10,879 nucleotides of DNA, from the NCBI GenBank assembly GCA_900755095.1, contig CAAEFE010000131.1, positions 1-10,879 on the forward strand. Reading direction: 5' to 3'. Below the pieces are notes generated by a model. The model was not told the DNA's origin. It did not search any database and saw only the letters and a list, made by a program, of their open reading frames with translations. A program made the position numbers and the translations under genes. Source of the stretch: an uncultured Bacteroides sp. (GTDB lineage: Bacteria; Bacteroidota; Bacteroidia; Bacteroidales; Bacteroidaceae). How positions within the stretch are numbered: position 1 is the first letter of the stretch; the number at the start of each line of letters is the position of its first letter. Below, in pieces: positions 1 through 10,879 of the stretch.

Positions 1-45
1 AATCGATTTTCTGCTAAATCCATAATGCTTCATTTTTATACATCG

Positions 46-77
46 CAAAAATATAAGAATGAAAAAAGGGCGACAAG
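46..77 (-). promoter_or_regulatory. Bacteroides-type promoter reading off the left edge
   Basis: Read on the minus strand, this is CTTG, 20 nt, then TATTTTTG. That matches the Bacteroides primary sigma pattern (TTTG, about 19-21 nt, TAnnTTTG) apart from one base in the -33 box. Transcription would begin near base 39 and run towards base 1. A minus-strand ATG at 23 opens a frame beginning MDLAENR that is still open at the window edge, and another ATG at 33 is also open. Either could be the start of the next gene, but only 7-11 codons are visible, so no gene is called. Confidence 0.45.
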
Positions 78-114
78 ATAGAATCGCGGAGACGCTTACA
101 AACGTGAAAGGATG

Positions 115-187
115 GGTGAAGGGAACACCCTTCACCTATAAACTGCTTATAGATAGGATAATACAAGGAAAAGTGAAGGGTGAAGAG
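115..187. repeat. GGTGAAGGG hairpin with extra direct copy, 3' of the ATPase gene
   Basis: GGTGAAGGG (115-123) and CCCTTCACC (128-136) form a perfect 9-bp stem with an AACA loop. A second small palindrome follows directly: CTATAA (136-141) against TTATAG (147-152). GTGAAGGG recurs in direct orientation at 173-180. The block lies between the stop of the minus-strand ATPase gene (196) and the next minus-strand promoter (46-77), the right place for a transcript end. No U-rich tract follows the stem on either strand, so a classic intrinsic terminator is not clear. It may be a small intergenic repeat element. Confidence 0.5.
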
Positions 188-195
188 ATTGTTCA

Positions 196-1953
196 TTATA
201 ACTCTTCGCATACCCGCATTTCCATACCTTTATATACCACTACAATTTTGTGTAGTTGCGTGGAGCCAATAGCTTGTTTCACCGTGTCCGTGTCGGCATA
301 GCGGTTGGCCTGGGCGATGGCTTCCTGACGCAATTCCTCCACACGGTTTTCAGAATCGCGATATTTGGCGTACTTCAACTCAACGATGTAGCTGTGCTTC
401 ATGTCAGAATATATGTCCAACATGGGACAGAGGAAAATATCGACGTAACCCGCTTGTGTATCTTGCTCGGAGATAGGACGGTAGAAGCGGTTTTGCGCAG
501 TCATGGCCAAGGTGAAGCCGTGAACGAAGAATTCGCCCTTTTGCTTGTCACGCTGGGATGCATAACGTTTCAGGCAGTCGGCAATGTAACCGAAATAGGC
601 TTGCCAATTGCCATCATAGGCGAGTTGACTTGAAAGTTCGCTCTTTTCGTAGCTGCTGAAATTCAAGTCTGCGTCGTTATAGGTATTCAGCAAATAAGTG
701 TAGAGCTGCTCTTGAACCACCAGGTTCGGAATGGTCAGTTTGGTCTTGCCTTTATCTATTCCGCTAATGGTTAACATTCCGAAATAGTAGAGCAGGCTTA
801 TAAAATTGTCCGGATTGGTGATGTTGACGGCAGGGAAACCTTTCTTCAGGTCACCAGTGATATAACCTTGACTCACTAAAGTTTGAATGACGGAAGCATC
901 GTGTGCAAACTCTTTATCCTTTCGAATGAGCATACGCAGCTTTTCATAGTCGATACGTATATTATCTTCTATCATTTCTCGTGGTGCTTTGCCGTTATCT
1001 ATGTAATTCTTCACGAAGTAGAGCACCATGTTGGAGTTGTACATGGTAGTTTCACCGTAACAATCCTGTGCGAAGCAATAATTGTCGTACCACGGTTTCA
1101 TTATTTCCATCAGTTCGTCAACAGTATGGCGGAAAGGGCTGTTCGTTGAATAATAAGTCAGCATTTCGCGCACTTCTTCTTCGGTGAACCCCATCATTTG
1201 GTTAAATTGAGGGGTAAGTGAGTAGTTTGTGCCGATGTTGAAGCCACTCGTCAGGTCATCCATCGTTACGGGGCTTACGCCGGTGATGAAACAACGCTCT
1301 ATGCTGGAATAAGTTCCTGCCTTCACCTTATTGAAGAAAGCACGCAGATAACCTTCGCCATGCGTTTCATCAGTGTAGCGGTGCAAACTTTCCGCATCGG
1401 AAAGGATGGCGTTGGTGAAGTGGTCGTATTCGTCGATGAAGAGATACATTTTCTGTCCGGCACGTTCGCACTCCGAAACCAAATAGTCCAGTTGGTTGAC
1501 AGCCCCGTCCTTTTCGTCCAATCGTTCTCTGATACCTTGTGGCAGGAGGTCAGAATAGACTTCACAGAAGAAGTCGAAGCGGATTTGGCAATGTGCATCC
1601 AGTCCTTTTCGATAATCGTTCAGTTCGCCGGTGATACCTGAAAAGTTGAGGTAAAGCACCAGATAGCTGTTGCGGTTTGCTGTGGGATGCTTCCCAATGT
1701 AGAGGTCGCCGAATAAGTCGTTGAACTTATCGCGGGTACGCACATCGTAGTAGTGTTGCAGTACGTTCAGCGTGAGGCTTTTGCCGAAGCGGCGGGGACG
1801 GATGAAGAAAAAGAACCGGTCTGCCTGCTCTATCATAGGAATGAAGCGGGTTTTGTCTACATAATAATAGTCTTCGCGGCGGATGACTGCGAAGTTCATC
1901 ATACCGTAAGGCAAACGCTTTCTGTTGGGTACTATATATTCCATTGGATCCAT
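196..1953 (-). CDS. AAA-ATPase-like / PD-(D/E)XK nuclease-superfamily protein
   Basis: This is a 585-residue protein with the two-part architecture of the AAA-ATPase-like (PF09820) plus PD-(D/E)XK (PF08011) families. The N-terminal third has the family's P-loop variant RPRRFGKS (about 52-59), a Walker B strand YLFIDEYD (170-177) and a conserved ITGVSPV segment (about 224-230). The C-terminal part has a nuclease-like core with Asp505 (GYVDIFL) and Glu525-Lys527 (IVELKYA). The start at 1953 is preferred over the ATG at 1986 because a perfect AGGAGG (minus strand, 1961-1966) lies 7 nt before it, unusually strong for Bacteroides, and because homologues as I recall them begin close to this point. 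It has no signal peptide and should be cytoplasmic. Such genes are abundant and multi-copy in Bacteroidales. Their physiological role is unknown; mobile or defence-type functions have been suspected, but nothing here shows one. It appears intact and monocistronic. Confidence 0.9.
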   Translation of the reverse strand: MDPMEYIVPNRKRLPYGMMNFAVIRREDYYYVDKTRFIPMIEQADRFFFFIRPRRFGKSLTLNVLQHYYDVRTRDKFNDLFGDLYIGKHPTANRNSYLVLYLNFSGITGELNDYRKGLDAHCQIRFDFFCEVYSDLLPQGIRERLDEKDGAVNQLDYLVSECERAGQKMYLFIDEYDHFTNAILSDAESLHRYTDETHGEGYLRAFFNKVKAGTYSSIERCFITGVSPVTMDDLTSGFNIGTNYSLTPQFNQMMGFTEEEVREMLTYYSTNSPFRHTVDELMEIMKPWYDNYCFAQDCYGETTMYNSNMVLYFVKNYIDNGKAPREMIEDNIRIDYEKLRMLIRKDKEFAHDASVIQTLVSQGYITGDLKKGFPAVNITNPDNFISLLYYFGMLTISGIDKGKTKLTIPNLVVQEQLYTYLLNTYNDADLNFSSYEKSELSSQLAYDGNWQAYFGYIADCLKRYASQRDKQKGEFFVHGFTLAMTAQNRFYRPISEQDTQAGYVDIFLCPMLDIYSDMKHSYIVELKYAKYRDSENRVEELRQEAIAQANRYADTDTVKQAIGSTQLHKIVVVYKGMEMRVCEEL

Positions 1954-2010
1954 CTTCTGTCCTCCTGCTGATTTCTTATTTAACAACTTGCTTCTTTAGC
2001 GTTAACGACA

Positions 2011-2018
2011 CAAAGATA
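2011..2018 (-). promoter_or_regulatory. -7 box for the ATPase gene
   Basis: The minus strand reads TATCTTTG here, a full match to the Bacteroides TAnnTTTG -7 element, about 58 nt upstream of the chosen ATG at 1953. No convincing TTTG -33 box lies 19-21 nt further upstream. Transcription would start near 2000-2005, giving a leader of roughly 50 nt that carries the AGGAGG site. The rest of 1954-2205 between the two divergent genes holds only the two promoters and an unassigned AT-rich spacer. Confidence 0.45.
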
Positions 2019-2149
2019 GTAAAAGTTCTTGTTGGGTACGAGGCATCCTCAAAAAAGTATTGGAAAAACTCATTCACACAAAGAACTACAGCCCTGACAA
2101 AGCTATTCTGAAACAGCAGTGAAGTGGCGGAAATAATTCTCGAGGTTAG

Positions 2150-2180
2150 CTTGTATATATTGAAAGATACTGTATTTTTG
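2150..2180 (+). promoter_or_regulatory. Bacteroides-type promoter of the DUF456 gene
   Basis: CTTG (2150-2153), exactly 19 nt, then TATTTTTG (2173-2180). This fits the Bacteroides housekeeping promoter with one mismatch in the -33 box. The predicted transcript begins near 2187, leaving a leader of about 20 nt before the ATG at 2206. Confidence 0.6.
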
Positions 2181-2205
2181 TGCAGAACTAAAAAAAGAAC
2201 AGACT

Positions 2206-2685
2206 ATGTTGGACATTATTTTGATTGTAATTAGTGCCCTTTGTATGATAGCCGGGTTAGCAGGTTGTATTCTGCCGTTTCTTCCCGGTCCGCCTATTGC
2301 TTATGTGGGGTTGATCATTCTGCACTTCACGGATAAGGTACAATATTCTACGACACAATTAATCGTATGGTTATTGATTGTAGCTGTTTTGCAGGTATTG
2401 GATTATTTCACTCCGATGCTGGGAAGTAAATATAGTGGCGGTAGTAAATGGGGTAATTGGGGATGTATCATAGGAACTCTTGTCGGTCTTCTTTTCTTGC
2501 CTTGGGGGATTATTCTCGGTCCGTTTCTAGGAGCGGTGATTGGTGAACTATTAGGAAATAAAGAGTTCTCGCAGGCACTCAAATCAGGTGTGGGCTCTTT
2601 ACTCGGATTTATATTCGGAACTTTACTGAAGTTCGTTGTCTGCGGTTATTTTTGCTATCAATTTATCATAGGTCTTATTCGGTAA
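2206..2685 (+). CDS. DUF456 family small integral membrane protein
   Basis: This 159-residue, very hydrophobic protein has about five membrane-spanning stretches (roughly 3-25, 29-42, 50-68, 86-112 and 124-157). Family-like marks of DUF456 are the LPGPP turn after the first helix (26-30), the polar loop GSKYSGGSKWG (73-83), and the Gly-rich helices that follow it (GTLVGLL and LGPFLGAVIGELLG, about 90-117). It belongs in the inner membrane. The family has no established biochemical function, so none is assigned. It has its own promoter 26 nt upstream and ends 111 bp before the carbohydrate cluster. No strong promoter is visible in that gap, so read-through into the cluster is possible, but the gene is probably not functionally part of it. 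Confidence 0.85.
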   Translation: MLDIILIVISALCMIAGLAGCILPFLPGPPIAYVGLIILHFTDKVQYSTTQLIVWLLIVAVLQVLDYFTPMLGSKYSGGSKWGNWGCIIGTLVGLLFLPWGIILGPFLGAVIGELLGNKEFSQALKSGVGSLLGFIFGTLLKFVVCGYFCYQFIIGLIR

Positions 2686-2796
2686 CCTATTTGATGTTGT
2701 AAAACATTCGTAAGAATAACCTATCTATTGCCTTTACATAGAGTACTAAATCGATGTGTGTTCGTCTTTATTGAAGTAGCACATTGAGGTAGTACC

Positions 2797-4674
2797 ATGA
2801 AAAAGACTTTTACTTATCTTTCTTTTATCATTTTCTTGGGGTGGTTTCCCTTGCTTTTTGCGGGAGAAATTTATGTATCCCTGCAGGGGAATGATAAGAA
2901 TCCCGGGACAAAGGAAGCCCCGTTTAATACATTAAACCGGGCAATCAAGCAGGCTCGTGAATGGCGTAGACTGAATCGGCCGGAAGTAGCCGGAGGAATT
3001 TATATTCGTTTGGAAGAGGGCGTTTATGCCCAGCGCAATTCTCTGTTTCTTCGTTCGGAAGATAGTGGGACACCCGATTCTCCAACAGTGATTTGTGCGG
3101 TAGATGGTGCTCACCCTGTGATTAGTGGTGGAGTTGCTGTTACAGGATGGAAGCGTGGATGCGATAATCCGGCAATTCCTGAAGAGTTGAGGCAGAAGAT
3201 ATGGTCGGCAGAGGTTCCCCTAATAGGAAATAGAAGAGTCGAAACCCGGCAAATGTGGGTGAATGGCAATAAAGTTCAAAGAGCTGCGCAATTTCCTGAC
3301 GGAGGAATGGAACGAATGATTGACTTCAATCCGGAGGAACAAACGATAACGATCCCTGCCTCTTATGTGAACAGTTCCCGGGAATCACAGAGTATAACTG
3401 GACTACAAAATGCCAGTCAACTGGAAATGATTGTCCATCAACGCTGGGCGATTGCTATTTTGCGCGTGAAAAGTATAGACGTGAAAGACGGACAAGCTGT
3501 AGTTCGCTTCCATGAACCTGAAAGTCACCTGGAGTTTGCGCATCCCTGGCCGCAACCCGTCATCGGAGGAGAGAAAGGAAATTCTTCCTTCTGCCTGATC
3601 AATGCACTGGAATTGCTGGACCAACCCGGTGAATGGTTCCAGGAATATCCTTCCGGCACGATTTACTATTATCCGCAGGCGAGCGAAAATATGGAAACAG
3701 CTGAAGTGATTATCCCTACCTTAGAAACTTTAGTGACCATAGACGGTACATTGTCTCGTCCGGTAAAACATATACAATTTAACGGAATTACTTTTGCGCA
3801 TACCTCCTGGATGCGTCCTTCTTTTCAGGGGCACGTCACCTTGCAAGGGGGATTTCCTTTATTGGATGCCTATAAACTACAAGAACCGGGGCTTCCGGAA
3901 AAAGCGGAACTGGAGAACCAAGCCTGGATCACCCGTCCCGAAACGGCAATACGTGTAAGAGGTGCCGAGCATATTGATTTCAAGCATTGCACGTTCCGTC
4001 ATTTATCATCCACCGGACTGGATTATGAATGGGCCGTTACTGCATCGAGTGTCGAAGATTGTCAATTTACGGATATTGGAGGAACGGCTTTACTGGTCGG
4101 TGCATTTCCGGACGGAGGATTTGAGACGCACATTCCTTTTATTCCTGCTGACGTACGGGAATTATGTTCCCATATTACTATCAGAAACAATTTCATCAGT
4201 AATGTGACTAATGAAGACTGGGGATGTGTAGGTATCGGTGCCGGATATGTCAGAAACATGGATATTTCTCATAATGAAGTCTGCCATCTGAACTATTCAG
4301 GGATTTGTGTAGGCTGGGGATGGACATCGCTGGAGAGCGGAATGTGTAACAACCGGATAGAAGCAAACTATGTACATCACTTTGCCCGTCGGCTATACGA
4401 TGCAGGCGGTCTGTATACTCTTTCCAACCAGCCGGGTTCCGTCATGCGAAATAATCGGATCGAACATTTAATCGAGGCACCCTACGCTACGAATGACCGT
4501 GCTTTTTATATCTATCTGGATGAAGCTACGGACGGATATACAATGGAAAACAACTGGTGTCCTGCTGAACGTTTTGATTCGAACCGCCCCGGGAAAAAGA
4601 ACGTGTGGAAGAATAACGGGCCTCAAGTGGCGGACAGTATTAAGTACAAAGCCGGAAGAATAAAGCAAGATTGA
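2797..4674 (+). CDS. secreted right-handed beta-helix glycosidase-like protein (GH141-like)
   Basis: This 625-residue protein starts with a typical signal peptide: MKK, a hydrophobic core, and probable cleavage after Phe21-Ala22 before GEIYVS. The mature part begins with the parallel-beta-helix entry seen in many polysaccharide-active enzymes (YVSLQGNDKNPGTKEAPFNT, 26-45). Next comes ISGGVAVTGW (109-118), then a WVNGNKVQRAAQFP segment (154-167) and repeated helix coils rich in N-[NR]-x-[IF] (about 380-590). The segments GWGWT (506-510), YDAGGLYTLSNQPGS (534-548) and IYLDEATDGY (572-581) recall GH141-type enzymes; Asp535 and Asp575 are plausible catalytic acids by position, an inference. GH141 includes an alpha-L-fucosidase acting on the pectin rhamnogalacturonan II, but the substrate here is unknown. 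The Cys near the processing site is absent, so it is probably periplasmic rather than a lipoprotein. GAGG precedes the ATG. It is the first gene of the cluster. Confidence 0.75.
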   Translation: MKKTFTYLSFIIFLGWFPLLFAGEIYVSLQGNDKNPGTKEAPFNTLNRAIKQAREWRRLNRPEVAGGIYIRLEEGVYAQRNSLFLRSEDSGTPDSPTVICAVDGAHPVISGGVAVTGWKRGCDNPAIPEELRQKIWSAEVPLIGNRRVETRQMWVNGNKVQRAAQFPDGGMERMIDFNPEEQTITIPASYVNSSRESQSITGLQNASQLEMIVHQRWAIAILRVKSIDVKDGQAVVRFHEPESHLEFAHPWPQPVIGGEKGNSSFCLINALELLDQPGEWFQEYPSGTIYYYPQASENMETAEVIIPTLETLVTIDGTLSRPVKHIQFNGITFAHTSWMRPSFQGHVTLQGGFPLLDAYKLQEPGLPEKAELENQAWITRPETAIRVRGAEHIDFKHCTFRHLSSTGLDYEWAVTASSVEDCQFTDIGGTALLVGAFPDGGFETHIPFIPADVRELCSHITIRNNFISNVTNEDWGCVGIGAGYVRNMDISHNEVCHLNYSGICVGWGWTSLESGMCNNRIEANYVHHFARRLYDAGGLYTLSNQPGSVMRNNRIEHLIEAPYATNDRAFYIYLDEATDGYTMENNWCPAERFDSNRPGKKNVWKNNGPQVADSIKYKAGRIKQD

Positions 4675-4707
4675 AACAAATCAATGGATTAACATAGTCA
4701 TTAATGT

Positions 4708-4826
4708 ACTAGTATAGCAATCAATAAACTAGTGTAATAATCATTAGAACTAGACTAGTATGGTAATCATTCAAACTAATATGATAATTATAGTAATCAA
4801 TAAACGATATTTAATCAATAAAATAG
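4708..4826. repeat. AT-rich degenerate ~20-bp tandem repeat before the GH31 gene
   Basis: Almost the whole gap between the beta-helix and GH31 genes is made of imperfect units that begin ACTAGT/ACTAAT and end with AATCAATAA or AATCATT. Units start at 4708, 4728, 4754 (preceded by a partial ACTAG at 4749), 4775 and, strongly decayed, 4804. ACTAGT itself occurs three times (4708, 4728, 4754) and AATCAATAA three times (4719, 4796, 4813). The last unit runs into the GH31 start codon at 4827, so the repeat forms the leader and ribosome-entry region. No TAnnTTTG promoter box and no terminator stem are visible in it. Confidence 0.65.
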
Positions 4827-7115
4827 ATGAAACCAACGAACTACCACTTATTTGATTTCCTTGATTTCGATACCGAGTTATCAAGGAATGAGTCGCTTTG
4901 GAAAGCATACAAGCCAACGGCTGTTTATGAAAAGGAAGGAGATATTTACGTAACAGTTCCCTTTCAGAAGCAAAAGCTGGCTAACGATATGATGGCGGAT
5001 ACCGATGTTCCCCAGGAGGAATATACGTTAATCATCCGTCAGTATAACATCGGCATCACCCGCCTGTTTCTTGGCTTCGGTGATTATGTACTGACAGATG
5101 AGTCGGAAATGCTACAATTCAGTGACCGGATTCAGAAAGTGCCCCTGTTTATAAAAGAACAAAAAGGAAAATGGATTCTTTCGACGGAAGACGGAACGAA
5201 GCGTGCCGTTATCAATGTGGAAGAGCCTCTATTAGACCGATGGAGCGAATTGCTTCCCGACCCTCAAGAAACGCTTGACATCACTTTATACCCTGATGGA
5301 AAGCGTGAAATCCGCTTGTCAGCCTACGACCATTTTTCGCCTCCCCGTTACGATGCGTTACCTGTTGCCTTTTGCAAACGCGATGGTCGGAAAGAACGGG
5401 CAACGCTTTCTTTTGAATGTAAGCCCGATGAATGTTTTGCCGGAACCGGAGAACGTTTCTTTAAAATGGACTTGAGCGGACAGACTTTCTTCCTGAAAAA
5501 CCAGGACGGGCAAGGAGTCAATAACCGGCGTACTTATAAGAATATCCCCTTCTATCTATCCAGCCGAATGTACGGAACATTCTACCATACATGTGCTCAT
5601 AGCAAGCTCTCGCTGGCCGGACATTCCACCCGTTCCGTCCAGTTTCTAAGCGACCAGGCATTGTTGGATGTATTTGTAATAGGCGGTGATACGATGGAAG
5701 ATATTCTTCGCGGTTATCGTGACCTGACCGGCTATCCGTCTATGCCTCCTCTTTGGAGTTTTGGCGTTTGGATGAGCCGTATGACTTATTTCAGTGCCGA
5801 TGAAGTAGACGAAATATGCGACCGCATGCGTACCGAACACTATCCCTGTGATGTAATTCATCTGGATACGGGCTGGTTCCGTACCGATTGGCTCTGCGAA
5901 TGGAAATTCAATGAAGAACGGTTCCCCGATCCGAAAGGATTCATCGGGCGGTTGAAAAAGAACGGCTATCGTGTCTCTTTATGGCAACTTCCATACGTTG
6001 CAGAAAATGCAGAGCAGATTGATGAAGCCAGAGCCAATGATTATATAGCCCCATTGACCAAACAACAAGCGACCGATGGTTCCAACTTCTCCGCCCTGGA
6101 TTATGCCGGAACAATCGACTTTACTTATCCGAAAGCAACCGAATGGTACAAAGGACTATTGAAACAACTCCTGGATATGGGAGTAACCTGTATCAAAACC
6201 GATTTCGGTGAAAACATTCACATGGACGCCCTCTATAAAGGTATGAAGCCGGAATTGTTGAACAACCTGTATGCCCTGCTTTATCAAAAGGCCGCTTGCG
6301 AAATTACGAAAGAAGTGACAGGTGACGGCATAGTCTGGGCACGTTCCGCATGGGCGGGATGCCAGCGTTATCCTTTGCATTGGGGAGGCGATTCCTGTAG
6401 TTCCTGGGATGGAATGGCAGGTTCTCTGAAAGGCGGTCTACATTTCGGCCTGTCGGGATTTGCTTTTTGGAGCCATGATGTTCCCGGCTTCCATACATTG
6501 CCCAATTTTATGAACTCGGTAGTAGTAGATGATGTGTACATGCGTTGGACCCAATTCGGCGTATTCACATCGCATATCCGTTATCACGGAACCAATAAGC
6601 GTGAACCCTGGCACTATCCGGCCATAGCTCCGTTGGTGAAAAAGTGGTGGAAATTGCGTTATTCGCTCATTCCATACATCGTAGAACAAAGTAAACTAGC
6701 CATAGAAAGCGGCTATCCGCTCTTGCAGGCACTCATTCTGCATCATCCGGAAGATAAACTTTGTTGGCATATAGATGATGAATACTATTTCGGCAATGAT
6801 TTCCTGGTAGCTCCGGTGATGAACAGCGAAAACCGTCGGGATATCTATCTTCCCGAAGGAAAATGGGTGAACTTCTTTACGGGAGAACATTTGGAAGGAG
6901 CATGCTGGTTGAGAGACGTGTATGTTCCGTTGGAAGAAATGCCCGTATATGTGCGTGCAAATGCCGTGATACCCATCTATTCGGAAGACGTGGACTGTAC
7001 GGATGAAATGGATTTAAGCAAGAGCATGGCTTTACGCATAGATAATGATTATAAAGGATTTTGGAATAGTTCACCACAGATTACACAGATTGACACAGAT
7101 GATAAGGGGAGATAA
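4827..7115 (+). CDS. GH31 family glycoside hydrolase, alpha-xylosidase type
   Basis: This 762-residue protein has no signal peptide, so it should act in the cytoplasm on imported saccharides. It has the GH31 layout: an N-terminal beta-sandwich (about 1-300, with GTGERFFKMDLSG at 206-218), a catalytic barrel (about 308-600) and C-terminal beta domains. The nucleophile is Asp459 in KTDFGE (457-462), the form found in alpha-xylosidases such as E. coli YicI, rather than the DMNE form of alpha-glucosidases. Asp522 in HWGGD is the likely acid/base, and FWSHD (547-551) is also conserved. The stretch HLDTGW (345-350) aligns with YicI HFDCFW, so the two YicI residues known to affect xylose/glucose choice (Cys307, Phe308) are Thr and Gly here, and specificity may differ. 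The last dozen residues are encoded by an intergenic inverted repeat and are unlikely to belong to the fold. The gene is 152 bp after the beta-helix gene and 78 bp before the corrinoid gene. Confidence 0.92.
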   Translation: MKPTNYHLFDFLDFDTELSRNESLWKAYKPTAVYEKEGDIYVTVPFQKQKLANDMMADTDVPQEEYTLIIRQYNIGITRLFLGFGDYVLTDESEMLQFSDRIQKVPLFIKEQKGKWILSTEDGTKRAVINVEEPLLDRWSELLPDPQETLDITLYPDGKREIRLSAYDHFSPPRYDALPVAFCKRDGRKERATLSFECKPDECFAGTGERFFKMDLSGQTFFLKNQDGQGVNNRRTYKNIPFYLSSRMYGTFYHTCAHSKLSLAGHSTRSVQFLSDQALLDVFVIGGDTMEDILRGYRDLTGYPSMPPLWSFGVWMSRMTYFSADEVDEICDRMRTEHYPCDVIHLDTGWFRTDWLCEWKFNEERFPDPKGFIGRLKKNGYRVSLWQLPYVAENAEQIDEARANDYIAPLTKQQATDGSNFSALDYAGTIDFTYPKATEWYKGLLKQLLDMGVTCIKTDFGENIHMDALYKGMKPELLNNLYALLYQKAACEITKEVTGDGIVWARSAWAGCQRYPLHWGGDSCSSWDGMAGSLKGGLHFGLSGFAFWSHDVPGFHTLPNFMNSVVVDDVYMRWTQFGVFTSHIRYHGTNKREPWHYPAIAPLVKKWWKLRYSLIPYIVEQSKLAIESGYPLLQALILHHPEDKLCWHIDDEYYFGNDFLVAPVMNSENRRDIYLPEGKWVNFFTGEHLEGACWLRDVYVPLEEMPVYVRANAVIPIYSEDVDCTDEMDLSKSMALRIDNDYKGFWNSSPQITQIDTDDKGR

Positions 7116-7155
7116 ATCATATCTGTGTTAATCTGTGTAATCTGTGGTGGACTAT
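7066..7155. repeat. CACRGA inverted repeat 1 (35-bp arms), overlaps GH31 stop
   Basis: The arms 7066-7100 and 7121-7155 match at 33 of 35 positions around a 20-nt loop. Both differences become G-U pairs in plus-strand RNA, so the transcript can pair over all 35 bp. Each arm carries three CACAGA hexamers (left arm at 7075, 7084 and 7094) spaced 9 and 10 bp apart. The left arm lies inside the GH31 coding sequence and the TAA stop (7113-7115) is in the loop. No long U tract follows. It may act as an RNA-stabilising or attenuating hairpin between GH31 and the corrinoid gene, or be a REP-like mobile repeat. Confidence 0.85.
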
Positions 7156-7193
7156 GATAGATTGTGGTAGAAAATTAATTAATTTAGTATAGT

Positions 7194-8999
7194 ATGAAAA
7201 CATGGAAGAGTAATTTAGAAGAAACAAAACAACGTTATATAAATTGGTGGAACCATAAAGGAATCATTCTCAATATGTGGGAGCACTTCCAGGAAGGAGT
7301 GCAACCACATGCAGAGATAACACCTCCCGCACCGGCAAAAGATTTGTCGCAAAAGTGGTTCGACCCTCAATGGAGAGCTGAATATCTGGACTGGTACGTA
7401 GCGCACAGCAGTCTGAAAGCGGATATTCTTCCGGTTGCGAATACCCAACTGGGCCCCGGCTCACTGGCCGCCATCTTAGGCGGAGTGTTTGAAGGTGGGG
7501 AAGATACCATTTGGATTCATCCCAACCCGGATTTCACCGATGAAATAGTCTTTAACCCCGAACACCCGAACTGGATTCTTCATAAAGAACTCCTGAAAGC
7601 CTGTAAAGCGAAAGCCAACGGACACTACTTTGTCGGTATGCCCGACCTGATGGAAGGACTGGATGTCCTGGCCGCACTGAAAGGAACGGATAGGGTATTA
7701 TTGGACACAGTGATGCAGCCCGAAATCCTGGAACAACAGATGCAGCAAATTAACGACATCTACTTCAAAGTATTTGATGAACTATACGACATCATCCGTG
7801 AAGGCGACGAGATGGCTTTCTGTTATTTCTCGTCTTGGGCTCCCGGAAAGATGAGTAAACTGCAAAGTGATATTTCAACCATGATTAGTCAGGATGATTA
7901 TCGCCGGTTTGTGCAACCTTTTATTCGTGAACAATGTCAGAAGATTGATTATACCCTTTATCATCTGGATGGAGTGGGAGCCATGCATCACCTGCCTGCC
8001 TTGCTTGAAATTGAAGAATTGAATGCGATTCAATGGACCCCCGGAGTGGGCGAACCACAAGGAGGATCTCCCAAATGGTACGATCTGTATAAGAAGATTC
8101 TGGCAGGAGGAAAGAGCGTGATGGCTTGCTGGGTGACATTAGACGAACTAAAACCCCTATTGGATCATATCGGCGTGGACGGTATACATTTGGAAATGGA
8201 TTTCCATAACGAAAAGGAAGTGGAACAGGCCATGCGGATTGTTGAAGAATATACCGGTTCTTCTACTTCTGTAAATACCAATGAACATCAACAGGATGCC
8301 GACTTGGCAGCTACCGGACAGGAACGTATTTGTATACGGGAAGAACAACACCTGGAAGAGGATAAACTGAAACCTCTGTATGAAGCCATTGTTGCCGGGA
8401 AACTGGAACCTGCGGTTGAAATCACCCGGCAAGCCATTGCGGAAGGAGTAGCTCCCCAAATGATTATCAATAATTATATGATTAAAGCAATGGGCGAAGT
8501 GGGACAACGTTTCCAGGATGGAAAAGCTTTTGTTCCCCAACTGTTGATGGCAGGACGTGCTATGAAAGGGGCTTTGGAGCTACTGAAACCTTTATTGGCA
8601 GGAAGTGCTTCCACTACAATCGGTAAGATTGTCATCGGTACAGTGAAAGGAGATCTCCATGATATTGGTAAAAACCTAGTGGCTTCCATGCTGGAGGGTT
8701 GCGGCTTTGAAGTCATTAATATTGGTATTGATGTGACTTGTGACAAGTTTGTGGAAGCTGTGAAGGAAAACCATGCTGACATCTTGTGCATGAGCGCATT
8801 GCTGACTACTACCATGACGTATATGAAAGAGGTTATTCAGGCATTGGAAGAGGCCGGTATTCGTAATCAAGTGAAAGTGATGATTGGCGGAGCACCCGTC
8901 AGTCAGGGGTTTGCTGACGAAATCGGTGCGGACGGATATAGTGACAATGCGAATACAGCTGTAGCAGTTGCCAAAGAACTGATTGGAAATAAAAAATAG
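7194..8999 (+). CDS. URO-D-like methyltransferase domain fused to cobalamin-binding corrinoid protein
   Basis: This 601-residue protein has two parts. Residues about 1-355 resemble the uroporphyrinogen decarboxylase/MtaA/CmuA superfamily, a TIM-barrel fold used by corrinoid methyltransferases. After a polar linker (about 356-386) comes a complete corrinoid protein: a helical cap (about 388-470) and a Rossmann cobalamin domain (about 476-600). The latter has the base-off B12 motif GDLHDIG (486-492), with His489 as cobalt ligand, and the downstream MSALLTTTM and GGAPVS segments. The arrangement recalls the chloromethane methyltransferase CmuA. The barrel differs from MtaA/CmuA because the zinc motif HxC is replaced by HLDG (257-260) and no late Gly-Cys ligand motif is seen; Cys311 is the nearest alternative. 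Its place between a glycosidase and a sugar symporter suggests a methylated-carbohydrate substrate (inference). No reductive activator or second methyltransferase lies in the window, so these would have to be encoded elsewhere. Confidence 0.88.
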   Translation: MKTWKSNLEETKQRYINWWNHKGIILNMWEHFQEGVQPHAEITPPAPAKDLSQKWFDPQWRAEYLDWYVAHSSLKADILPVANTQLGPGSLAAILGGVFEGGEDTIWIHPNPDFTDEIVFNPEHPNWILHKELLKACKAKANGHYFVGMPDLMEGLDVLAALKGTDRVLLDTVMQPEILEQQMQQINDIYFKVFDELYDIIREGDEMAFCYFSSWAPGKMSKLQSDISTMISQDDYRRFVQPFIREQCQKIDYTLYHLDGVGAMHHLPALLEIEELNAIQWTPGVGEPQGGSPKWYDLYKKILAGGKSVMACWVTLDELKPLLDHIGVDGIHLEMDFHNEKEVEQAMRIVEEYTGSSTSVNTNEHQQDADLAATGQERICIREEQHLEEDKLKPLYEAIVAGKLEPAVEITRQAIAEGVAPQMIINNYMIKAMGEVGQRFQDGKAFVPQLLMAGRAMKGALELLKPLLAGSASTTIGKIVIGTVKGDLHDIGKNLVASMLEGCGFEVINIGIDVTCDKFVEAVKENHADILCMSALLTTTMTYMKEVIQALEEAGIRNQVKVMIGGAPVSQGFADEIGADGYSDNANTAVAVAKELIGNKK

Positions 9000-9006
9000 A
9001 ATAAAA

Positions 9007-9084
9007 AGGCACGGATTACACGGATCAACACGGCTCTTAATTACATAGCCTATTAAAACCGTGAAATCCATGTAATCCTTGCCT
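9007..9084. repeat. CACRGA inverted repeat 2 (imperfect), after the corrinoid gene
   Basis: The arms 9007-9040 and 9053-9084 pair imperfectly, with scattered mismatches and a small length difference, around a 12-nt loop. The left arm has three hexamers CACGGA, CACGGA and CACGGC at 9010, 9019 and 9029, the same 9- and 10-bp spacing as repeat 1, but with CGG in place of CAG. It begins 8 bp after the stop of the corrinoid gene and lies wholly in the 133-bp gap before the symporter gene. It looks like a decayed or diverged member of the same repeat family. No promoter box is obvious between it and the ATG at 9133. Confidence 0.75.
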
Positions 9085-9132
9085 GAAAGAAAATTAGATT
9101 TAAACTTACGTTACTTATTTAATACTTGAATT

Positions 9133-10704
9133 ATGCATGTGAAATTTTTAGAGACATTAGATTGGAGTATTCTGATTGCCTACTTCCTGATTTTGATAGC
9201 TATTGGTATATGGGCAAGTTCAAAACGAAAAAAGGGGAGTAGTCTTTTCCTTGCGGAGAATTCGTTGAGATGGTATCATATCGGCTTCTCCATGTGGGGG
9301 ACGAATGTCGGACCTTCCATGTTGATAGCTTCCGCAAGTGCCGGATTTACTACTGGTATTGTTTCGGGGAATTATGCCTGGTATGCATTTGTCTTTATAT
9401 GTCTGCTTGCTTTTGTCTTTGCTCCCCGATATTTGGGTAGTCGCATCACGACATTGCCCGAATTTATGGGAAAACGTTTCGGACAATCTACCCGTAACAT
9501 CCTTGCCTGGTATACCATTATTACCATTCTTATTTCATGGCTTGCATTGACTTTATTTGCCGGTGGAGTCCTGATCCGTCAGGTCTTCGATATTCCTATG
9601 TGGCAATCGGCATTGCTGTTACTTGTCATCTCCGCTTTCTTCACAATGCTTGGCGGACTGAAAGCTGTGGCCTACACGAATGTATATCAAATGATACTGT
9701 TGATTGTAGTATCAGCCACACTGGCTATCATGGGAATCTATAAAGTGGGTGGTGTAGGAGCACTGGTGGACGCCGTTCCAGCGGATTACTGGAATCTTTT
9801 CCATCCAAATGATGACCCGGCTTTTCCTTGGCTACCTATTATCCTGGGTTATCCTATTATGGGAGTTTGGTTTTGGTGTACGGATCAGTCGATGGTGCAA
9901 CCGGTTCTTGCTGCCAGGAATCTGAAAGAAGGACAGATGGGAACCAACTTTACCGGATGGTTGAAAATATTAGATGTACCTCTTTACATTCTTCCCGGCA
10001 TTATCTGCCTCGCTTTATTCCCACAATTGGAGAATCCCGATGAGGCTTACATGACAATGGTGACTCATCTGTTCCCGACAGGAATGGTTGGCTTGGTATT
10101 GGCTGTATTGACAGCAGCATTGGTAAGTACTGTCGGCTCTGCTTTGAATGCATTAAGTACGGTATTCACGATGGATATCTATGTGAAGAAAATCCGACCG
10201 CAGGCCAAGCAGAAAGAGATTATCAGAGTGGGACAAGTGGTTACGGTAGTTGGTGCACTGATCTCTGTGATAATAACCATAGCGATCGACAGCATCAAGG
10301 GACTGAATCTGTTTAATGTTTTCCAGTCTGTACTGGGATTTATAGCTCCTCCGATGGCAGCTGTATTTCTCTTTGGCGTGTTCTGGAAACGCACCACTAC
10401 TCTGGCTGCTAATATGGCTCTAACATTGGGAACAGTGTTCAGTATCGGAGTAGGAATCTTGTATTTATGGGTGTTTCCGGCAGAACAATATGATGCATGG
10501 CCTCATTTTATGCTGCTTTCCTTCTACTTATTCGTTATCATCGGAATAGGCATGATAGTAGTCAGCCTGTGGGATAAGTCTCCGCAATTGGGCATCTTGA
10601 ATATGGAAAAGATAGAGGACAAACCTGCACGAATTGTTCTTATCCTATGGGGATTACTTATTGTGACCATGATTGGGCTTTACATCTTCTTCAATGGCCA
10701 CTAA
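9133..10704 (+). CDS. SGLT-type sodium:sugar symporter (SSS family)
   Basis: This 523-residue inner-membrane protein has about 14 hydrophobic segments, as in SGLT-type members of the sodium:solute symporter family. Segments lie roughly at 12-28, 47-75, 82-98, 125-147, 157-176, 180-203, 235-252, 275-296, 316-336, 366-386, 395-418, 425-447, 456-478 and 499-520. Signatures are GGLKAVAYTNVYQ (174-186), the sugar-SGLT-like WFWCTDQ (246-252), the Ser/Thr-rich sodium-site helix followed by TMDIY (about 328-350), and LFGVFWKR (413-420). It should import a sugar or small glycoside together with Na+. It is the last gene of the collinear cluster, 133 bp after the corrinoid gene. No SusC/SusD pair is present, so outer-membrane entry must use another system or diffusion. 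The substrate cannot be read from the sequence. Confidence 0.93.
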   Translation: MHVKFLETLDWSILIAYFLILIAIGIWASSKRKKGSSLFLAENSLRWYHIGFSMWGTNVGPSMLIASASAGFTTGIVSGNYAWYAFVFICLLAFVFAPRYLGSRITTLPEFMGKRFGQSTRNILAWYTIITILISWLALTLFAGGVLIRQVFDIPMWQSALLLLVISAFFTMLGGLKAVAYTNVYQMILLIVVSATLAIMGIYKVGGVGALVDAVPADYWNLFHPNDDPAFPWLPIILGYPIMGVWFWCTDQSMVQPVLAARNLKEGQMGTNFTGWLKILDVPLYILPGIICLALFPQLENPDEAYMTMVTHLFPTGMVGLVLAVLTAALVSTVGSALNALSTVFTMDIYVKKIRPQAKQKEIIRVGQVVTVVGALISVIITIAIDSIKGLNLFNVFQSVLGFIAPPMAAVFLFGVFWKRTTTLAANMALTLGTVFSIGVGILYLWVFPAEQYDAWPHFMLLSFYLFVIIGIGMIVVSLWDKSPQLGILNMEKIEDKPARIVLILWGLLIVTMIGLYIFFNGH

Positions 10705-10710
10705 TTTTTA

Positions 10711-10803
10711 TTCACCACAGAGAACGCAGAGGACACAGAGTCTTTTATTATTAGATAATAATCTCTGTGTCCTCTGCGTTCTCCTTTAGATTTGCACTGT
10801 GAA
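10711..10803. repeat. CACRGA inverted repeat 3, after the symporter gene
   Basis: A perfect 21-bp match joins 10720-10740 with 10763-10783. An outer TTCAC (10711-10715) can pair with GTGAA (10799-10803) across an asymmetric internal loop, and the loop region contains a small palindrome, TTATTA/TAATAA. The left arm carries CACAGA, CGCAGA and CACAGA at 10716, 10725 and 10734 (9-bp spacing). It starts 6 bp after the symporter stop and could form the transcript-end hairpin of the operon. Its distal end overlaps the -33 region of the next promoter. Confidence 0.82.
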
Positions 10804-10829
10804 AAATAAAGGTTGAAATATTACCTTTG
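10798..10829 (+). promoter_or_regulatory. promoter of the next gene, beyond the right edge
   Basis: TGTG (10798-10801), 20 nt, then TACCTTTG (10822-10829). The -7 box is a full TAnnTTTG match and the -33 box differs from TTTG at one base. The transcript would start near 10836. No ATG-started frame is visible before the window ends at 10879, so the gene itself is outside. Confidence 0.6.
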
Positions 10830-10879
10830 TGGTTAAAACAAGTTAACCAAGGAAAGCAGGTGACCCATTGTGTTCTCTA

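Follow-up and report, generated by a model that had tools for sequence, protein, structure and literature searches.

We analyzed a 10,879-nt stretch of DNA from an uncultured Bacteroides sp. (GCA_900755095.1, contig CAAEFE010000131.1, positions 1-10,879 of the forward strand; hereafter the window), in which four collinear genes encode a GH141 glycosidase, a GH31 glycosidase, a fusion of a methyltransferase domain to a corrinoid domain and a sodium:solute symporter (Table 1). Taken together, the data make it fairly likely that this cluster carries out B12-dependent O-demethylation of a 2-O-methyl sugar from rhamnogalacturonan II (RG-II), most likely 2-O-methyl-D-xylose-alpha-1,3-L-fucose, with the methyl group ending in methionine.

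In the pathway we propose, the secreted GH141 would release the methylated disaccharide outside the cell, the symporter would import 2-O-methyl-xylosyl-fucose, and the cytoplasmic GH31 would split xylose from fucose, either before or after demethylation. The N-terminal domain of the fusion (the N-domain) would activate the ether oxygen and the methyl group would move to Co(I) of the corrinoid domain, after which methyl-Co(III) would methylate homocysteine to methionine, within one polypeptide in those relatives that carry a third domain. For the two-domain form of the window a separate partner would act as acceptor, candidates being the homocysteine domain of MetH and an MtaA-like neighbor (c5), and a MetH-type protein (c4) would rescue oxidized cobalt with S-adenosylmethionine (SAM).

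Table 1. Positions of the cluster genes and fusion modules in the window
Feature	Position	Strand	Remarks
GH141 glycosidase	2797..4674	+	625 aa; BT_1002 relative; N-terminus signal-like, by eye
GH31, alpha-xylosidase type	4827..7115	+	762 aa; N-terminus not signal-like, by eye
Methyltransferase-corrinoid fusion ORF	7194-8999	+	601 aa
N-domain of fusion, UroD-fold methyltransferase module	7194..8330	+	from predicted structure; below Pfam cut-offs
Corrinoid module of fusion, helical cap and B12-binding domain	8370..8999	+	PF02607, PF02310, DxHDxG motif
SSS symporter (sodium:solute)	9133..10704	+	523 aa; PF00474 195.7 bits

Gene cluster and its conservation

An earlier note had described the four-gene cluster at 2797..10704, and the sequence does contain all four open reading frames (ORFs), in a collinear row on the + strand, with Pfam domains that agree: GH141_M and Beta_helix in the first, three GH31 domains in the second, B12-binding_2 and B12-binding in the third and SSF in the last. 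The GH141 scores 199.3 bits against PF21231, and over residues 18-620 it has BT_1002 as its best PDB match (5mqp, 592.6 bits). The insertion domain is present, and the catalytic Asp pair of BT_1002 (D523 and D564 in the numbering of PMC10154630) aligns with Asp when the offset is deduced from the Asp spacing. The window enzyme thus shares both catalytic Asp residues with the GH141 of the RG-II degradome of Bacteroides thetaiotaomicron. It differs in its operon partners, which are a cytoplasmic-type GH31, a methyltransferase-corrinoid protein and a symporter. The GH31 falls nearest to the alpha-xylosidase family of NCBIfam (481.9 bits against a cut-off of 606), its best PDB match is 5f7c (1656 bits) with YicI-type enzymes next, and it has KTDFGE and GGD stretches in common with YicI, which we take to be catalytic. 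Given its N-terminus this enzyme is probably cytoplasmic, and we propose the symporter as the importer of the released methyl sugar.

A scan of GTDB genomes with the N-domain yielded 225 relatives, of which the best 80 loci (L001-L080), all from Bacteroidales, were kept; some of these end at a contig edge and not every neighbor is annotated. By ORF clusters, GH141 and GH31 each lie near the fusion in 50/80 loci and the symporter in 44/80, with GH141 and GH31 together in 46/80 and joined by the symporter in 39/80. On these counts the cluster is not a chance arrangement. Two gene orders occur, the GH31 preceding the fusion in 33 and following it in 18 of the 51 stretches with both (here, and for the gaps that follow, the window is included), and the genes are tightly packed: the GH141-GH31 gap has a median of 10 bp (47 pairs, 17 overlapping) and the GH31-fusion gap a median of 13 bp (33 pairs, 9 overlapping).

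Two upstream genes adjoin the cluster, a protein with AAA-ATPase_like and PDDEXK_9 domains by Pfam (196-1986, - strand) and a DUF456 protein (2206-2685, + strand). We do not count them as part of it because the first is matched in 0/80 related loci and the second lies beside the cluster in 2/80 only (L001 and L002). There is no SusC/SusD pair among the six annotated proteins of the window. Elsewhere, L020, L021 and L028 have the fusion beside an Asp/Glu-racemase-like and a transporter-like protein (by eye) and not labelled glycosidases, and in L083 and L085, from other Bacteroidota, inspection by eye shows two URO-D-like genes immediately next to one that is GH31-like, which may be a further pairing of UroD and GH31. 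In G746 the GH31 is broken across two frames (L105, 5139-7372), which may reflect a pseudogene or a fault in the assembly. L049, L059, L071, L077, L078, L104, L105 and L108 have a DHDPS-family aldolase and a second SSS symporter close to the fusion, perhaps serving Kdo/Dha or a deoxy-sugar acid.

Predicted fold and proposed active site of the fusion

The N-domain has no match in PDB sequence searches, and residues 1-379 of the fusion stay below every Pfam cut-off. Its predicted structure is nonetheless that of the UroD/MtaA fold, a UroD TIM barrel with UROD and MtaA as best matches; a first, weak model (alignment A2, pLDDT 74) gave the same fold family and was replaced by one from alignment A4, which includes standalone relatives. 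The stretch YHLDG (residues 256-260), with H257-x-D259, is found in 88/88 N-domains and D336 in 87/88, and we propose that these three residues form the metal and activation site, their placement at the metal site of MtaA coming from strand order and one short aligned stretch. Where S-methyltransferases have His-x-Cys, the N-domain thus has an invariant His-x-Asp, and O-methyltransferases of the UroD superfamily are described with a carboxylate, which here too would replace the Cys ligand. A role as S/Se-methyltransferase was rejected on the strand end, which has no His-x-Cys. H332 and E334 were dropped as ligands because both change in four forms in which the fusion is split, and D336 was retained.

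The corrinoid module is recognized by PF02607 (76.6 bits) and PF02310 (101.5 bits), and DxHDxG is found in 77/80 proteins, the other three fusions being cut at contig ends before the corrinoid domain. We rejected the current annotation as a methylamine or betaine methyltransferase, as the corrinoid domain falls below the cut-offs of those families and the N-domain model best matches UROD and MtaA; MttB-type chains are absent from the structure matches listed for the N-domain, which excludes nothing. Residues 1-378 of the fusion are 100% identical to P0014 of Bacteroides ovatus, a protein named only 'corrinoid protein'.

Probable methyl acceptor and methionine genes

Among the 80 loci the two-domain form seen in the window occurs in 11 and a three-domain form in 65, with three more cut by the contig end after the second domain and one, L061, missed by the ORF caller, in which the pieces are spaced as in a three-domain protein. 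PF02574 identifies the additional domain as a homocysteine S-methyltransferase (281.3 bits in L035), and GxNC and GGCCG motifs are found in 66/66 fusions longer than 800 aa. In a further arrangement (G722, G746, G479 and G511) methyltransferase and corrinoid protein are separate neighboring genes between the GH31 and the symporter. Across 67 rows of the three-domain form, conservation is highest in the N-domain (median identity 90%), followed by the corrinoid domain (83%) and the homocysteine domain (65%); quick trees on the number of gains of the last gave weak support and long branches. Since the homocysteine domain is fused in 65/80 loci, the methyl acceptor is probably homocysteine and not tetrahydrofolate (THF), and it is because a fused homocysteine acceptor makes that direction sensible that we infer demethylation, and not methylation, of the sugar.

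Two companion genes lie near many of the fusions, c4 and c5 in 45/80 loci each and one or other in 51/80; the window ends before the position at which L001 carries them. In L004 and L035 the c4 product (median 216 aa) carries the reactivation domain Met_synt_B12, and in L004 that of c5 (median 336 aa) is a URO-D, MtaA-like protein. The His-x-Cys...Cys motif of c5 points to a thiol or selenol. The earlier note had looked to a corrinoid activase and a THF methyltransferase elsewhere in the genome. A MetH-type reactivation protein stands near the cluster instead, and a RACE-type activase domain was found in none of 12 genomes chosen from the 80 loci. PF02965 is found in 12/12 of these, always including a frame of c4 size (218-238 aa), and PF02574 likewise in 12/12; by analogy with MetH c4 may rescue the corrinoid with SAM. 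A THF methyltransferase is not among the annotated neighbors; THF as acceptor and RACE as activase were looked for and left unsupported. The c4 protein also bears a C-terminal Cys-rich motif, CGLCx4CY, in 38/45 cases (L035, 12821-13411, - strand, and relatives), a possible metal or Fe-S site; such a motif is not known from MetH.

The methionine genes were surveyed in 28 genomes with the N-domain, 12 from the loci and 16 from the draw of Bacteroidaceae genomes described below (G003, the 17th of that draw, already belongs to the 12). Frame lengths assign the three-domain form to 15 of them, the two-domain form to nine and the split form to four. MetF (PF02219) is present in 22/28 and was not found in G006, G007, G511, G608, G693 and G709, and canonical MetH, taken as any PF02574 frame of 913-1251 aa that is not the fusion itself, is present in the same 22/28 and in none of the six genomes that lack MetF. 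All nine two-domain genomes keep both. In five of the six genomes without MetF, all of them three-domain, the fusion is the only PF02574 protein, and the sixth, G511, combines the split form with a homocysteine methyltransferase of 283 aa that shares 26% identity with the fused domain. For MetA (PF04204) the count is 27/28, including all six. Among the first 12 genomes MetE (PF01717) has a partial match in one (G011) and was not found in G006 and G007, each of which has a single pterin-binding protein of folP size (302 and 310 aa). With MetA kept, the five genomes whose only homocysteine methyltransferase is the fusion thus seem equipped to begin making homocysteine, and the fusion is the one protein found in them that would methylate it. 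Gene absences from incomplete assemblies are possible, yet the matched losses of MetF and MetH are hard to explain in this way. We suggest, tentatively and as somewhat less likely than not, that certain Bacteroidales of the gut, for instance Xylanibacter caecicola (L073) and Marseilla massiliensis (L036), in whose assemblies MetF, canonical MetH and MetE were not found, have wholly replaced folate-dependent methionine synthesis, the three-domain fusion serving as a methyl-ether-dependent methionine synthase that uses methyl groups of plant pectin.

Proposed substrate, rival readings and known systems

The link to RG-II was a guess of the earlier note and has gained support from gene co-occurrence. 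In 399 Bacteroidaceae genomes the N-domain (counted at E up to 1e-40) is present in 17, and our RG-II marker, the BT_1020-type propeller PF24067, passes its cut-off in 35 (with E up to 0.001 as the limit, in 37). Every one of the 17 belongs to these 35 (Fisher p 1.4e-20, uncorrected for kinship). The general pectin marker GH28 also includes all 17 but occurs in 225/399, so that the RG-II marker encloses the N-domain genomes more closely. Among 395 Bacteroidota genomes drawn evenly, G003, the center, is alone in having a close N-domain match, six others being weak. Near the fusion itself, a BT_1020-like gene lies two genes upstream in L059, L067 and L078 (3/80) with a GH78 between; GH78 or GH106 is present in 11/80 loci and L-fucose isomerase in 6/80. 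An aldo-keto reductase, an amidohydrolase and a zinc alcohol dehydrogenase occur together near the fusion in L014, L018, L033, L035, L036, L052, L058, L062 and L073, a set that presumably resembles the oxidative L-fucose route.

As to the disaccharide, BT_1002 is described as releasing 2-O-methyl-D-xylose-alpha-1,3-L-fucose from RG-II chain A (PMC10154630), and one RG-II linkage is said to be left unbroken by B. thetaiotaomicron (PMC12282258); we infer that this is the linkage inside the disaccharide. According to PMC3243724, RG-II supports growth of both B. thetaiotaomicron and B. ovatus. Matched by names and order alone, BT_0338-BT_0343 appear to correspond to the window cluster: BT_0338 is a GH141 (PMC8264420), BT_0339 is given as an alpha-xylosidase (PMC10434189), and BT_0340, BT_0342 and BT_0343 appear as 'Mta' in a list of methylamine methyltransferase corrinoid proteins (PMC8941943). 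BT_0338 is also grouped with BT_0984, BT_1002 and BT_4136 as four fucosidases that differ by >2.8-fold in co-culture (PMC8264420), and, BT_0984 and BT_1002 being RG-II genes, this lends weak support to the RG-II link.

The same chemistry might act instead on 2-O-methyl-L-fucose of RG-II chain B, released by GH139, to give L-fucose and methionine. For this speak the GH139 BT_0984, described as specific for 2-O-methyl-fucose (PMC12282258), and the 15/80 loci with L-fucose isomerase, or at least two of the aldo-keto reductase, amidohydrolase and alcohol dehydrogenase, near the fusion. However, the cluster has a GH141 and an alpha-xylosidase-type GH31, and GH139 did not turn up among the neighbors run against Pfam, where it was not searched for by name, and we regard this variant as unlikely. 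That the methyltransferase acts on a methoxylated aromatic of an imported glycoside is suggested by the phenolic O-demethylases OdmB, VdmB and MtvB, which PMC13222342 places among UroD-superfamily corrinoid methyltransferases. We hold this to be quite unlikely in view of the confinement of all 17 N-domain genomes to the 35 with the RG-II marker, of the fucose- and RG-II-type genes near some loci and, as a softer argument, of the many invariant Trp, Asp and His residues, as in sugar sites. Very improbable, finally, is a variant methionine synthase whose N-domain takes its methyl group from methyl-THF, with the sugar genes incidental: MetH-type modules for homocysteine, corrinoid and reactivation do occur, but the fusions of the window, L035 and L073 have no pterin-binding domain (PF00809), MetF was not found in the five genomes in which the fusion is the only homocysteine methyltransferase, and all 22 MetF-positive genomes also carry canonical MetH.

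Several observations weigh against demethylation of an RG-II methyl sugar. The earlier note had asked whether the same four genes stay together across Bacteroidales. In 18/80 loci, 7 of them on pieces >15 kb, the stretch covered has none of the labelled glycan gene clusters, although L038 and L075 among these have a partial GH141 or GH31 match; such loci still speak against a simple operon rule. Of the RG-II-marker genomes 18/35 are without the N-domain, which is therefore not required for having the marker, and the Fisher p overstates independence because the genomes share ancestry, their completeness not being given. The N-domain misses the URO-D cut-off (PF01208, 11.2 against 23.9 bits), D336 is near-invariant once standalone relatives are included, and comparison of N-domain and c5 profiles, from shallow alignments, gave no significant direct link (hhalign probability 0.8, E 0.074). 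The 601-aa protein of the window has no homocysteine domain by Pfam, and the RACE C-terminal domain PF14574 was found in 0/12 genomes. No Rfam match at the gathering score, and therefore no known riboswitch, was found in the window or 13 loci, and riboswitch control was dropped.

The suggestion of the earlier note that glycoside import is coupled to a B12-dependent pathway for methyl ethers nevertheless draws support from the conserved neighbors, the predicted UroD fold and the proposed carboxylate in place of the Cys ligand. Each module of the pathway is known. Acetogen corrinoid O-demethylases (MtvB, OdmB and VdmB) and archaeal MtoB likewise pair a UroD-superfamily methyltransferase with a corrinoid protein; compared by description and not by sequence, the present system differs in its glycan operon and fused homocysteine domain, and in having neither RACE in the 12 genomes nor a separate THF methyltransferase among the annotated neighbors. 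The three-domain relatives share homocysteine S-methyltransferase and corrinoid modules with MetH, and a separate MetH-type reactivation gene lies nearby, but have a predicted UroD-fold domain in place of the methyl-THF domain, and the window form is without the homocysteine domain. The split MtgBCDE system of Ruegeria described in PMC12478193 already joins a demethylase to methionine synthesis by way of a single corrinoid protein, but differs in its donor, glycine betaine, its pfam06253 methyltransferase, methyl transfer to THF and an aerobic host. Type 1 mlp gene clusters, according to PMC10418091, combine a corrinoid protein with an MtaA-like gene bearing the His-x-Cys...Cys motif of c5, but have RACE, Mlp2 and Mlp3 and are assigned to methyl-S/Se. 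The cytochrome P450 of marine bacteria also removes a methyl ether from a monosaccharide, 6-O-methyl-galactose, but by an oxidative route with formaldehyde as product, as reported in PMC10033563 and PMC12316285. Among the open-access literature matches listed, we recognized neither corrinoid demethylation of a sugar nor this domain order.

The cluster is a concrete candidate for anaerobic O-demethylation of sugars in gut bacteria. It may also account for the RG-II linkage that PMC12282258 describes as unbroken by B. thetaiotaomicron, provided that this linkage joins 2-O-methyl-xylose to fucose. Should the proposed pathway hold, BT_0340, BT_0342 and BT_0343 would need renaming, and dietary pectin, vitamin B12 and the supply of methionine would be tied together in one operon.

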